Shown here in pieces: positions 45,999-50,599 of a DNA stretch of 64,000 bases. This DNA comes from Vibrio ezurae NBRC 102218. GTDB taxonomy: Bacteria > Pseudomonadota > Gammaproteobacteria > Enterobacterales > Vibrionaceae. The stretch's first letter is position 1. Each line of letters opens with the position of its first letter. The notes under the pieces are model-generated. The model was not told the origin of the DNA. It saw nothing but the letters and a program-made list of their open reading frames with translations, and ran no database searches. The stretch covers positions 1 to 64,000 of the forward strand of contig NZ_BATM01000019.1 of the NCBI RefSeq assembly GCF_000467185.1, read 5' to 3'. Made by a program: the position numbers and the translations under genes.

Positions 45999-48206
45999 AT
46001 GACCCAAAACACTCGTGCAAATCGTTCACAACAAACTCCACAACCTGACGTAATCGATCTTGGTAAATTGCTTGGCCTGTTGCTTGATGGTAAGTGGATC
46101 ATCATTGTTACTACTTTCATCTTTGCTGCATTAGGCGTGACCTATGCGCTATTGGCGACCCCAATTTATAAAGCAGACGCATTAATTCAAGTAGAACAGA
46201 AAAACAGCGGTATGCCAGCCCTGAGCGAAGGCTTGAGCGACATGTTTGCTCAAGAGTCTAACGCTGCCACTGAAATTGAGATTATCAAATCTCGTATGGT
46301 TTTGAGCAAAACTGTAGATAAATTTAACCTAACTACGGTTGCAAAGCCTGATTACTTACCAGTTATTGGTAAAGGCTTAGCTATGCGCTTAGGTAAAGAA
46401 GCCTACATAAAAGTAGAACGATTTAACATCCCTGAATATGCTGAAACGGGCGGCTATCAACTTACCCTCGATAATGCACAAACTGGTGAGTATTCACTAG
46501 TCGATGCTAACGAAAAACTGATTCTAAAAGGGAAAGTAGGGGAGTTAGCTAAATCTTCTCAAGTCTCAGCAACAGGCGATCAAGCCGCATTCTCTATCTT
46601 TGTTTCATACCTTTCTGGTAAACAAGGTCAGGTTTTCAACTTATCACAACGCTCTAAACTCACTGCTATTAATTGGCTAGCGTCTAATTTGTCAGTGTCT
46701 GAACGCGGTAAACAATCTGGTATTTTATCCTTTGGCTTTGAAGGCCCTGACTCTCAACAAAACATTGATCTACTAAATGACGTTGCAACTAATTATTTCC
46801 TACAAAACGTAGATAGAAACGCAGCCGAAGCTGAAAACAGCCTCAAGTTCCTAAAAACGAAACTGCCTGAAATTAAACAGCAACTAACCATTAATGAAGA
46901 TGCGCTAAATAAATATCGCCAAGACAACGAATCTGTAGATTTAGGCCTAGAAGCGCAATCAACCTTAAAAGTGATGGTTGAACTAGAATCACAACTTAAT
47001 GAACTGACATTCAAAGAAAGTGAACTAGCACAGCGCTTTACCAAACAACACCCTGCTTATGTTGCGGTACTAGAAAAACGTCAAACGTTGCTTAAACAAA
47101 AACATCAGCTAGAAGCAAAAATCAAAAAGCTTCCAAAAACCCAGCGTGAAGTACTGCGTTTAACTCGTGACGTGCAAGTAAACCAAGAAATTTATGTCCA
47201 GTTGCTTAACAAATCTCAAGAACTTGCCATTGTTAAAGCAAGTACTGTAGGCAACGTGCGCATTCTTGATAAAGCCGCTTCAAATGGCTTAGCGGTTAAA
47301 CCGAAGAAACCACTAATTGCAGTATTAGCCACTCTTCTTGGCGGCATGTTAAGCGTAGCATTTGTATTACTTCGCGCTGCATTCCACCGCGGCGTAGAAA
47401 GCCCAGACCAAATTGAAGAAATTGGTATGTCGGTTTATGCCACCATTCCAAAATCAGAACAACAAGATAAAATTGATAAGTCTTATCGAAAACTAAGAAA
47501 ATCAGGTAAAAAACGCAGTGCTGAACAAGCCTTTTTATCACTGGTAAACCCGGCTGATTTATCAATCGAAGCCCTGCGCTCCCTGCGCACTAGTTTGCAC
47601 TTTGCAATGATGGAAGCAAAAAACAACGTAATCATGATCACCGGCCCATCACCAGGTATAGGTAAATCATTCGTTGCTAGTAATTTCGCTGCTGTTATCG
47701 CTAGCAGTGGTCAAAAGGTACTTATTATCGATGCTGACTTACGAAAAGGCCACATCGGATATAGCGTTGCTTTAGAACATACCCACGGTCTTTCAGGCTG
47801 CCTAGCGAATACACATAAAATTGAAGACGTGATTCACTACGGTATCGCGGATAATCTTGACCTTATTACAAAAGGTAAAACACCACCAAATCCATCAGAG
47901 CTGCTAATGCACGGTAGATTTACTGAATTAGTAGAGTGGGCAAGCGAGAACTACGATATCGTTCTTATTGATACACCGCCTGTACTTGCTGTAACGGATG
48001 CTGCAATTGTGGGCCGCCATAGTGGTACAACTTTGATGGTGTCTCGATTTGGTATTACATCGACTAAAGAACTTGAAGTAGCAGCTGATCGCTTAGAGCA
48101 AGCAGGTGTTGAAACTAAAGGTGTTATTTTGAATGCTGTTGAGAAAACTGCGTCAAGTTACTACACGTATGGGTATTACAACTATGCGTACAAGAGTGAC
48201 GCATAA
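45999..48206 (+). CDS. wzc: Polysaccharide co-polymerase / tyrosine autokinase Wzc
   Basis: A 735-residue inner-membrane protein. A Wzz-type chain-length domain with two helices (about residues 33-53 and 437-457) frames a long periplasmic coiled-coil region; a cytoplasmic BY-kinase follows with Walker A GPSPGIGKS (from 549), Walker A-prime LIIDADLRKG and Walker B IVLIDTPP. Seven tyrosines (721, 722, 724, 726, 727, 729, 731) cluster in the last 15 residues and are the likely autophosphorylation sites. It controls polymer length and export with Wza and Wzb. Confidence 0.95.
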   Translation: MTQNTRANRSQQTPQPDVIDLGKLLGLLLDGKWIIIVTTFIFAALGVTYALLATPIYKADALIQVEQKNSGMPALSEGLSDMFAQESNAATEIEIIKSRMVLSKTVDKFNLTTVAKPDYLPVIGKGLAMRLGKEAYIKVERFNIPEYAETGGYQLTLDNAQTGEYSLVDANEKLILKGKVGELAKSSQVSATGDQAAFSIFVSYLSGKQGQVFNLSQRSKLTAINWLASNLSVSERGKQSGILSFGFEGPDSQQNIDLLNDVATNYFLQNVDRNAAEAENSLKFLKTKLPEIKQQLTINEDALNKYRQDNESVDLGLEAQSTLKVMVELESQLNELTFKESELAQRFTKQHPAYVAVLEKRQTLLKQKHQLEAKIKKLPKTQREVLRLTRDVQVNQEIYVQLLNKSQELAIVKASTVGNVRILDKAASNGLAVKPKKPLIAVLATLLGGMLSVAFVLLRAAFHRGVESPDQIEEIGMSVYATIPKSEQQDKIDKSYRKLRKSGKKRSAEQAFLSLVNPADLSIEALRSLRTSLHFAMMEAKNNVIMITGPSPGIGKSFVASNFAAVIASSGQKVLIIDADLRKGHIGYSVALEHTHGLSGCLANTHKIEDVIHYGIADNLDLITKGKTPPNPSELLMHGRFTELVEWASENYDIVLIDTPPVLAVTDAAIVGRHSGTTLMVSRFGITSTKELEVAADRLEQAGVETKGVILNAVEKTASSYYTYGYYNYAYKSDA

Positions 48207-48284
48207 TACCAAGTATTTAAACCCTCGGCATAGTAACGTTATATTCTAGTTGATATAGATATTTACGCTCGACTTTATACAAGC

Positions 48285-48330
48285 TGTCATCCCGGAAGTT
48301 GCGTAGCAATTATCCGGGATCTTAGTGGCA
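48285..48330. repeat. REP-like palindromic element
   Basis: ATCCCGGA (48289-48296) pairs with TCCGGGAT (48313-48320), with an inner AGTTGC/GCAATT pairing, a GTA loop and one bulged A. The outer bases TGTCAT and CTTAGTGG resemble those of the element inside rmlB, suggesting the same repeat family. Confidence 0.75.
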
Positions 48331-48332
48331 AC

Positions 48333-48368
48333 GACCCCTTAATACGGTGAGACCCCTTAATACGGTGA
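48333..48368. repeat. Exact 18-bp tandem duplication
   Basis: The unit GACCCCTTAATACGGTGA occurs at 48333-48350 and again, identically, at 48351-48368, directly after the REP-like element. Identity suggests a recent slippage or recombination event. Confidence 0.9.
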
Positions 48369-48526
48369 AGTGTAACGAGTTGGCTAGATAGTTTGTAGCC
48401 TACTAAAAACTCAGACGCATATCACTATAGATATTTACAGGGACCTATTGGGGCTAGTTTCATAAAGTAAGTGAAATCTAGGGTTTGCAAGGGCTAGCGT
48501 AAAATCGGCTGTCTCAAAATGGATAA

Positions 48527-48564
48527 AAAGTGTCTCAGTGGCATTAAAATAACTGAGACACTTT
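48527..48564. terminator. 13-bp inverted repeat, possible terminator or attenuator
   Basis: AAAGTGTCTCAGT (48527-48539) and ACTGAGACACTTT (48552-48564) are perfect complements with a 12-base loop. The plus-strand side has only TTT at the end of the stem; the minus strand has TTTTT. It may weaken or end transcription after wzc unless overridden by RfaH antitermination. Confidence 0.5.
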
Positions 48565-48591
48565 CGTCAGAAAAAACCCACTATTTAACCT

Positions 48592-48611
48592 ATCGCCACG
48601 CTCGTGGCGAT
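48592..48611. repeat. 9-bp inverted repeat just upstream of rmlB
   Basis: ATCGCCACG (48592-48600) and CGTGGCGAT (48603-48611) are perfect complements separated by 2 bases, 31 bases before the rmlB start. It may form a stable hairpin in the mRNA leader; role unknown. Confidence 0.6.
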
Positions 48612-48642
48612 GGTCAAAAAATACAATCATAAGAGAAATTCC

Positions 48643-49722
48643 ATGAAAATACTCGTCACTGGCGGTGCTGGCTTTATTGGATCCGCCGTGGTTCGCCACA
48701 TCATTCAAAACACGTCTGACAGCGTGATCAACGTAGACAGCCTCACTTACGCAGGTAATCTAGAGTCACTTCAGGACGTCGATTCCAATGAGCGTTACGC
48801 TTTTGAACAAGTGAACATTTGTGATCGCTCACAATTGGATCGAGTGTTCGCCGAGCACAAACCGGATGCGGTGATGCACCTTGCCGCCGAGTCTCATGTC
48901 GACCGTTCAATTGATGGTCCAGCGGCATTTATCGAAACCAACATTGTGGGCACCTACACCTTGCTTGAAGCCACTCGTGCTTATTGGAATGGATTAGATG
49001 AAGCAGACAAAACAGCATTTCGCTTCCACCACATCTCAACCGATGAAGTGTACGGTGATTTAGAAGGTACTGATGACTTGTTCACAGAAACTACCTCTTA
49101 TGAACCATCAAGTCCTTACTCGGCATCAAAAGCTTCGAGTGATCATTTAGTTCGTGCTTGGCTTCGTACTTATGGACTGCCGACAATCGTAACGAACTGC
49201 TCGAATAACTACGGTCCGTATCACTTCCCAGAAAAACTCATTCCTCTAATGATTCTAAATGCGTTAGATGGCAAAGCCTTGCCGGTTTATGGCGATGGCA
49301 TGCAAATCCGTGATTGGTTGTTTGTTGAAGATCATGCGAGAGCGCTATACAAAGTGGTTACGGAAGGTGTGGTAGGTGAAACTTACAACATCGGCGGTCA
49401 TAACGAAAAAGCCAACATTGAAGTAGTGAAAACCATTTGTTCACTTTTAGAAGAACTAGTACCGACCAATTGTCATTCCCGCGCAGGCGGGAATCTTGGT
49501 GGGTTCGAATCTCTGATCACCTACGTAACCGACCGTCCAGGACACGATGCGCGCTACGCGATAGACGCTTCTAAAATTGAGCGTGAGTTAGGCTGGACGC
49601 CAGAAGAGACATTTGAATCGGGCATTCGTAAAACCGTCGAATGGTACTTAAACAACAAAGAGTGGTGGAGCCGAGTGCTTGATGGCTCATACGCGGGCGA
49701 GCGTTTAGGAGTGAACAAATAA
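48643..49722 (+). CDS. rmlB: dTDP-glucose 4,6-dehydratase, with an in-frame repeat element
   Basis: A 359-residue extended SDR that converts dTDP-glucose to dTDP-4-keto-6-deoxyglucose. TGGAGFIGS (NAD motif), T133-D-E135, and Y159-x-x-x-K163 (SPYSASKAS) form the RmlB active site; [16 protein letters not shown] and [15 protein letters not shown] are family segments. Between VP and the ITYV stretch the protein has about 17 residues ([17 protein letters not shown]) where homologues usually have about 8-10. That piece is the translation of a palindromic repeat. The frame stays open and both sides align, so the enzyme is probably active. ATG 48643 has AAGAGA upstream. rmlA follows after one base. 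Confidence 0.93.
49471..49504 (+). repeat. Palindromic repeat element inside rmlB
   Basis: ATTCCCGC (49475-49482) and GCGGGAAT (49487-49494) form an 8-bp stem with loop GCAG, flanked by TGTC and CTTGGTGG. The flanks and stem pattern match those of the REP-like element at 48285-48330. It is read in frame as CHSRAGGN. Confidence 0.85.
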
Positions 49723-49723
49723 C

Positions 49724-50599
49724 ATGAAAGGTATTGTTCTTGCAGGAGGTTCAGGCACACGTCTGTACCCAATTACTCGCGGTGTGTCTAAGCAGTTGCT
49801 GCCGCTTTACGATAAACCAATGGTGTATTACCCAATATCAACCTTGATGCTTGCAGGCATACGAGACATTCTGATCATCACTACGCCAGAAGATCAACAA
49901 GGTTTTAAGCGTATTTTGGGTGATGGGAGTGATTTTGGTATTAACCTAAGCTTTGCGGTGCAACCGAGCCCTGAAGGATTAGCTCAAGCATTTATTATTG
50001 GTGAAGAGTTCATTGATGGCTCACCGGTGTGCTTGGTTTTAGGAGATAACATATTTTACGGGCAAGGATTTCCTGAAATTTTAACAAATGCAGGTGATAT
50101 CGCTCGTAAGCAAGGTGCGACGGTATTTGGCTACCACGTGAAAGACCCAGAGCGGTTTGGAGTAGTTGAATTTGATAAACAAAAGCGAGCACTCTCGATT
50201 GAAGAAAAGCCTGAAACTCCAAAATCAAATTATGCAGTGACAGGTTTGTATTTTTATGACAACTCTGTGGTCAGTAAAGCTAAAAAAGTACAGCCTTCTG
50301 AGAGAGGTGAGTTAGAAATAACGAGCATTAATCAGATGTATTTGAATGAAAACACATTGAATGTTGAGCTTTTAGGTCGTGGATTTGCTTGGTTAGACAC
50401 TGGCACTCATGAGAGCCTTAACGAAGCCTCGAACTTTGTACAAACTATTCAACATGTTCAAGGGTTAAAGATTGCAAGTTTGGAAGAGATAGCTTGGCGT
50501 AATGGTTGGTTGACTTCAGAGCAAGTTGCAGAACTTGCACAACCTATGTGTAAGAACGAGTATGGCCGGTATTTATTAGACCTTGTGGAAAATAGATGA
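49724..50599 (+). CDS. rmlA: Glucose-1-phosphate thymidylyltransferase
   Basis: A 291-residue nucleotidyltransferase making dTDP-glucose. [35 protein letters not shown] is the signature, with VLGDNIFYG and [12 protein letters not shown] further on. It supplies RmlB. rmlC and rmlD do not follow, so the product is not L-rhamnose in this window; instead the dTDP-4-keto sugar probably goes to the aminotransferase downstream. The stop overlaps the wzx start (ATGA). Confidence 0.95.

Follow-up and report, generated by a model that had tools for sequence, protein, structure and literature searches.

A CGTC-1 type palindromic repeat carried in frame in the rmlB gene of Vibrio ezurae

The rmlB gene of Vibrio ezurae NBRC 102218 carries within its reading frame a palindrome that matches exactly a repeat present in other bacterial genomes. 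Judged by its sequence, it belongs to the CGTC-1 family of palindromic repeats (REPs), though its own genome hosts no family of copies. We consider it very probable that a single CGTC-1 REP replaced part of an RmlB loop in this Vibrio lineage, with a near-neutral outcome. In the mechanism that we propose, one such repeat (of the dRS3/RPE-6 type) would have taken the place of part of the loop that connects the helix formed by residues 258-272 to the strand formed by residues 292-295. The frame would have been kept by luck, with a net gain of 15 bases, and residues 277-284 of the encoded protein now read CHSRAGGN. The repeat would have arrived from outside, when DNA of a relative carrying REPs recombined, homologously or illegitimately, with this genome, and the altered loop would be tolerated. 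What is new here is the present instance, since the carriage of REPs in frame is already known.

The palindrome in the reading frame of rmlB

The DNA analysed, here called the window, comprises the first 64,000 nucleotides of contig NZ_BATM01000019.1, and the genome scanned consists of 67 contigs with 3,682,900 bases in all. In the window, rmlB occupies positions 48643 to 49722 of the forward strand as an open frame of 359 amino acids encoding dTDP-glucose 4,6-dehydratase, and it is the sole match in its genome at E <= 1e-80. The protein belongs with RmlB, as it exceeds the cutoffs of TIGR01181 (526.6 bits, cutoff 365.1) and of NF007490 (659.6, cutoff 649) and keeps the catalytic motifs; it falls narrowly below the cutoff of NF007582 (675.6, cutoff 698). 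TDE at residues 133-135 as well as Y159 and K163, which we take to be the catalytic residues, are invariant in an alignment of 49 proteins. By sequence, the closest solved protein is E. coli RmlB (1bxk), and by fold it is Salmonella RmlB (1g1a). The gene is followed downstream by rmlA; other genes of the locus are presumably wza and wzc, names given from the look of the proteins, the profile scan having covered rmlB and rmlA.

The REP lies at positions 49471 to 49497 of the forward strand. It consists of a TGTC tag (49471-49474), an 8-bp stem with the arms ATTCCCGC (49475-49482) and GCGGGAAT (49487-49494) around a GCAG loop (49483-49486), and a CTT tail (49495-49497). The part that matches the repeat exactly is the 24-mer GTCATTCCCGCGCAGGCGGGAATC at 49472-49495, and the rmlB frame reads through the REP as CHSRAGGN. 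When the free base of the repeat is C, five of its six frames are open (counted by hand), which a rough reckoning shows to be unremarkable in a sequence of 24 bases and to which no weight was given. The preliminary description of this DNA had proposed a palindrome carried in frame inside the conserved enzyme RmlB, and this is confirmed, with the 24-mer now recognized as a known repeat of a mobile type.

As RNA, the REP folds well: a segment of 32 bases reaches -13.7 kcal/mol, a value that none of 200 shuffles equalled, and in a wider context of 41 bases the value is -16.8, with 5 of 200 shuffles as good. A stable hairpin between rmlB codons and upstream of rmlA could have been kept for a role in the mRNA, such as an effect on pausing, on stability or on attenuation within the operon. 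However, the hairpin is not followed by a T-run, and the relatives compared do not share it, so that nothing suggests selection; we regard an mRNA role as very unlikely.

Could the palindrome have arisen by chance, through the small indels and substitutions of ordinary loop variation? This loop is a hot spot of indels, the compared segment ranging from 18 to 33 residues, and a perfect 8-bp stem alone is common enough, being found in 13 of 149 rmlB genes with that of the window included. However, the match is exact and to an external sequence: among 227 genomes of the genus, 14 (own genome included) have the 24-mer with the loop base left free, in 41 copies in total, while the backwards control gave 0 copies in the 227. 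Furthermore, none of 500 codon shuffles of rmlB came within fewer than 7 mismatches of the repeat, and none of the 148 other rmlB genes within fewer than 8. In the window, an 18-base pattern allowed up to 3 mismatches has a single site (found once per strand), against 0.08 expected. A chance palindrome is thus contradicted by the exact repeat match together with the distance of shuffles and other genes, and we hold this explanation to be extremely improbable.

The loop in related RmlB proteins

Loops were taken from 149 rmlB genes, which are fewer than all rmlB matches and of which some are present in both collections; the distinct long rmlB sequences number 137. One locus was left out because no frame was found (L181), and two by rule (L001 and L002). 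The variable loop of the window's RmlB (positions 49465 to 49515, forward strand) has 17 residues, as had been stated in the preliminary description; its figure of 8-10 residues for relatives does not hold, since the main group has 12, such that the difference is 5 and not 7 to 9. Between the conserved IC and the ITYV strand there are 22 residues in 117 of the 149 genes and 18 in 24, i.e., the segment is five or nine residues shorter than in the window, which speaks against the refuting case named in the preliminary description, in which most Vibrio RmlB proteins would have the same loop. A length of 27 residues, that of the window's RmlB, is found in 3 of the 149 genes, and longer forms are 28 residues in two genes, 30 in one and 33 in two. 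The two other genes with 27 residues (L043 and L044) are from Vibrio and have a loop of the same length with another sequence. Their loops end in GFRSL and that of the window in GGFESL, and this similar end together with the same length suggests that the loop in the window's lineage may have been longer already.

The syntenic orthologues of V. comitans and of the genome G143, in which rmlB is flanked by the same upstream genes and followed by rmlA, do not carry the REP; their loops read KPEGVAHYQDL and KPEGVSHYEDL. We regard them as the likely state before the change. Compared by eye, the window has approximately 34 bases where the two orthologues have approximately 19, which suggests that the REP replaced some bases. 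The change amounts to a net gain of 15 bases and is not a clean insertion, and no target duplication was identified at the REP in rmlB.

A predicted model of the protein (mean pLDDT 83.3) places the insert between helix 258-272 and strand 292-295, which bears out the earlier assignment of the palindrome to a loop. The pLDDT is below 50 at residues 279-282. It is also below 50 at residues 84-90, away from the insert, so that the insert is not the only part modelled with low confidence. Since the loop varies in length among RmlB proteins, the change was probably tolerated. With the catalytic motifs kept and the insert in a low-confidence loop, the REP is most likely a near-neutral decoration.

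A different history of the 3′ end must be weighed here. The REP in rmlB, which is in a polysaccharide locus, stands just before a stretch of approximately 200 bases shared with V. comitans, and it might mark the left edge of a short V. comitans-like donor tract that replaced the end of the gene. The last 64 codons of rmlB (296-359; positions 49528 to 49719, forward strand) are 92% identical to V. comitans as compared to 78% in codons 1-270, weak to moderate evidence for a recombination tract, and identity returns to 0.73 in the 60 bases past the stop codon. The pair ranked at the top of 1024 pairs with similar identity before the loop (mean 0.746, sd 0.037), and its best 160-base window was reached by 0 of 5000 codon permutations. 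However, the pair was selected after the result was seen, and the 3′ end is similar in other pairs too (0.857 for G143 and V. comitans, 0.854 for two V. comitans copies, 0.815 for the window and G143). Moreover, V. comitans (genome G106) has no copy of the REP. An import with the REP at its edge thus seems to us possible though unlikely, and recombination here is a lead, not a result. The general idea that CGTC REPs get into genes by forming the junctions at which imported DNA is joined in short recombination events would be more doubtful still.

Copies and possible source of the repeat

The genome of V. ezurae holds no second exact copy of the REP, the next best site having 2 mismatches in 17 fixed bases, and a pattern with a wider loop still finds one copy across the genome. 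A Y1 transposase (PF01797) has no match in this genome, whereas 5 of 14 control genomes do have a match. We therefore reject both a spreading of the REP in its own genome and its transposition by a resident Y1 transposase. Because of the single copy and the lack of a Y1 match, arrival from outside appears the better account.

The preliminary description had pointed to a related REP-like element 1.2 kb upstream. This element is an intergenic hairpin (positions 48286 to 48321, forward strand) with a REP-like tag and tail and a different core, and by exact pattern it is single. V. comitans and G143 have it in the same intergenic position, and hence it is rejected as a mobile sibling of the REP and shows no recent burst. 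The hairpin, with a fold z-score of -5.16, may be a real leader RNA. In G143, two of its pairs are changed on both sides and one outer pair is lost (by eye). No Rfam family matched in 48150-49750, a single hit with an E of 0.53 lying far below the gathering score. The rmlB leader also holds, at 48333-48368, the 18 bases GACCCCTTAATACGGTGA twice in tandem, which is not so in the two relatives aligned. With one exact copy, no Y1 transposase found and an orthologous upstream relative, a spreading of this small repeat in the genome is unsupported.

It had further been held that the lack of other copies in the genome would make this ordinary loop variation. To the letter, there are no other exact copies here, but the rule asks too much, since other Vibrionaceae have the repeat in multiple copies: a form shortened by one base is present in 20 of the 329 family genomes (own genome included), one of which has 129 copies. 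At the class level, this shortened form was found in 59 of 369 sampled genomes (own genome included). Taken as a whole, the earlier interpretation is partly supported.

As for possible donors, G143 carries four tandem REPs (G143:C2:1055517-1055901), approximately 120 bases apart and approximately 11 kb from its rmlB, which indicates that donors exist among relatives. The array sits between two rmlB copies. Clustered CGTC REPs have been described in Neisseriae in the accessible text of PMC3733652. Sequenced plasmids were rejected as the source. A query with rmlB gave no plasmid match; a query of the 91 bases that surround the loop matched 43 plasmid records, none of them covering 80% of it. Among the 10 plasmid matches listed, 6 align to the palindrome part and 4 (from Acinetobacter) only to the bases before it.

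Further copies of the repeat lie in genes of other genomes. A set of 154 distinct exact copies was drawn from the best-listed loci and from hand-picked regions, tandem arrays included, and on account of this picked sampling the 5 copies of 154 that are in frame (RmlB included) do not amount to a rate. The four further candidates are two HsdM genes, an RsmJ-type methyltransferase and a glycosyltransferase of family 9, and in-frame REPs use two reading frames (HSRxGGN and VIPAxAGI). The glycosyltransferase (L090, from Vibrio hannami) has approximately 45 extra residues as compared to 3tov and the RsmJ-type protein approximately 33 as compared to 2pkw, and in both cases the matches to Pfam and to solved homologues are split into two stretches that flank the insert. 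In the glycosyltransferase, the REP is accompanied by an inverted partner (by eye), both being in frame. The HsdM genes (L215 and L236) come from different bacterial families, are 60% identical and have an in-frame REP at one common site; Pfam covers the part before the insert, and the frame after it rests on the alignment of the two REP-bearing proteins. A further stretch in L215, PLPQGEGPGVRG, is absent from L236 and looks as if it may be repeat-derived. Open reading frames that passed the length rule numbered 28, and 13 of these were scanned with Pfam, in batches of 5 (two slightly shortened) and 8. In the second batch, 7 had no family match; in the eighth (L282), the REP stands where an N6 methylase match stops, and that gene is therefore probably broken. 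Among the other 15, of which 3 are masked in part or entirely, there may be further cases or spurious open reading frames.

Relation to known repeats

In the accessible text of PMC3733652, CGTC-1 is defined by a CGTC tag that is often TGTC or CCTC, an 8-bp stem starting with AT, a 4-base loop and a tail that is mostly CCA; intragenic copies are reported and a dedicated transposase was not found. The REP in rmlB agrees with this in its TGTC tag and in its stem and loop (ATTCCCGC-GCAG-GCGGGAAT), whereas repetition within the genome is seen in other Vibrionaceae and not here. Among the 154 copies, 115 have the tag CGTC and 29 the tag TGTC (144 together), and the tail is CCA in 113 and CTN in 39, with CTT, as in rmlB, in 6. 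In-frame REPs have been in print since 2013 (PMC3733652, as far as accessible), and its abstract calls the movement of CGTC REPs an open question. The main text as accessible, supplements apart, has no word starting with "Vibrio", and the accessible part of PMC12306157 likewise lacks Vibrio. Literature titles and abstract openings, a scope mostly outside subscription journals, yielded no report of a REP in rmlB.

The gene described here is a clean case, in which a palindrome with no known transposase became protein in a genome that has no further exact copy. A lone REP with known flanks also offers a favourable setting in which recombination and transposition of CGTC REPs can be tested against each other.

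Several systems of small repeats invite comparison. RU elements, of which one V. cholerae open reading frame is listed (PMC2759123, accessible part), and the QMITEs of Coxiella (PMC5896051, accessible part) are likewise small repeats found in frame in genes, but in the parts seen they are longer, MITE-like units of other sequence. GTAG REPs, which go with RAYT transposases, are short palindromes for which copies within open reading frames have also been reported (accessible text of PMC3733652); the REP in rmlB differs in its TGTC tag and in the lack of a Y1 transposase match in its genome. Closer is the likeness to the Rickettsia palindromic elements (RPE-6, RPE-4 and RPE-1) that the preliminary description had seen. 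These are palindromes in frame in genes, and the REP in rmlB likewise is in frame in a gene whose relatives are without it. However, they are present in many copies in a Rickettsia genome, whereas here a Vibrio-type genome holds one exact copy, and RPE-1 is longer (PMC3733652, accessible text). The same text equates CGTC-1 with Neisseria dRS3 and with RPE-6 of Rickettsia conorii, the species that it finds richest in intragenic CGTC repeats. It is CGTC-1/dRS3 that the REP in rmlB resembles in its TGTC/CGTC tag, its AT-starting 8-bp stem, its 4-base loop, the lack of a dedicated transposase and the existence of intragenic copies, and from which it differs in being a single exact copy in its genome and in having a Vibrio as its host.
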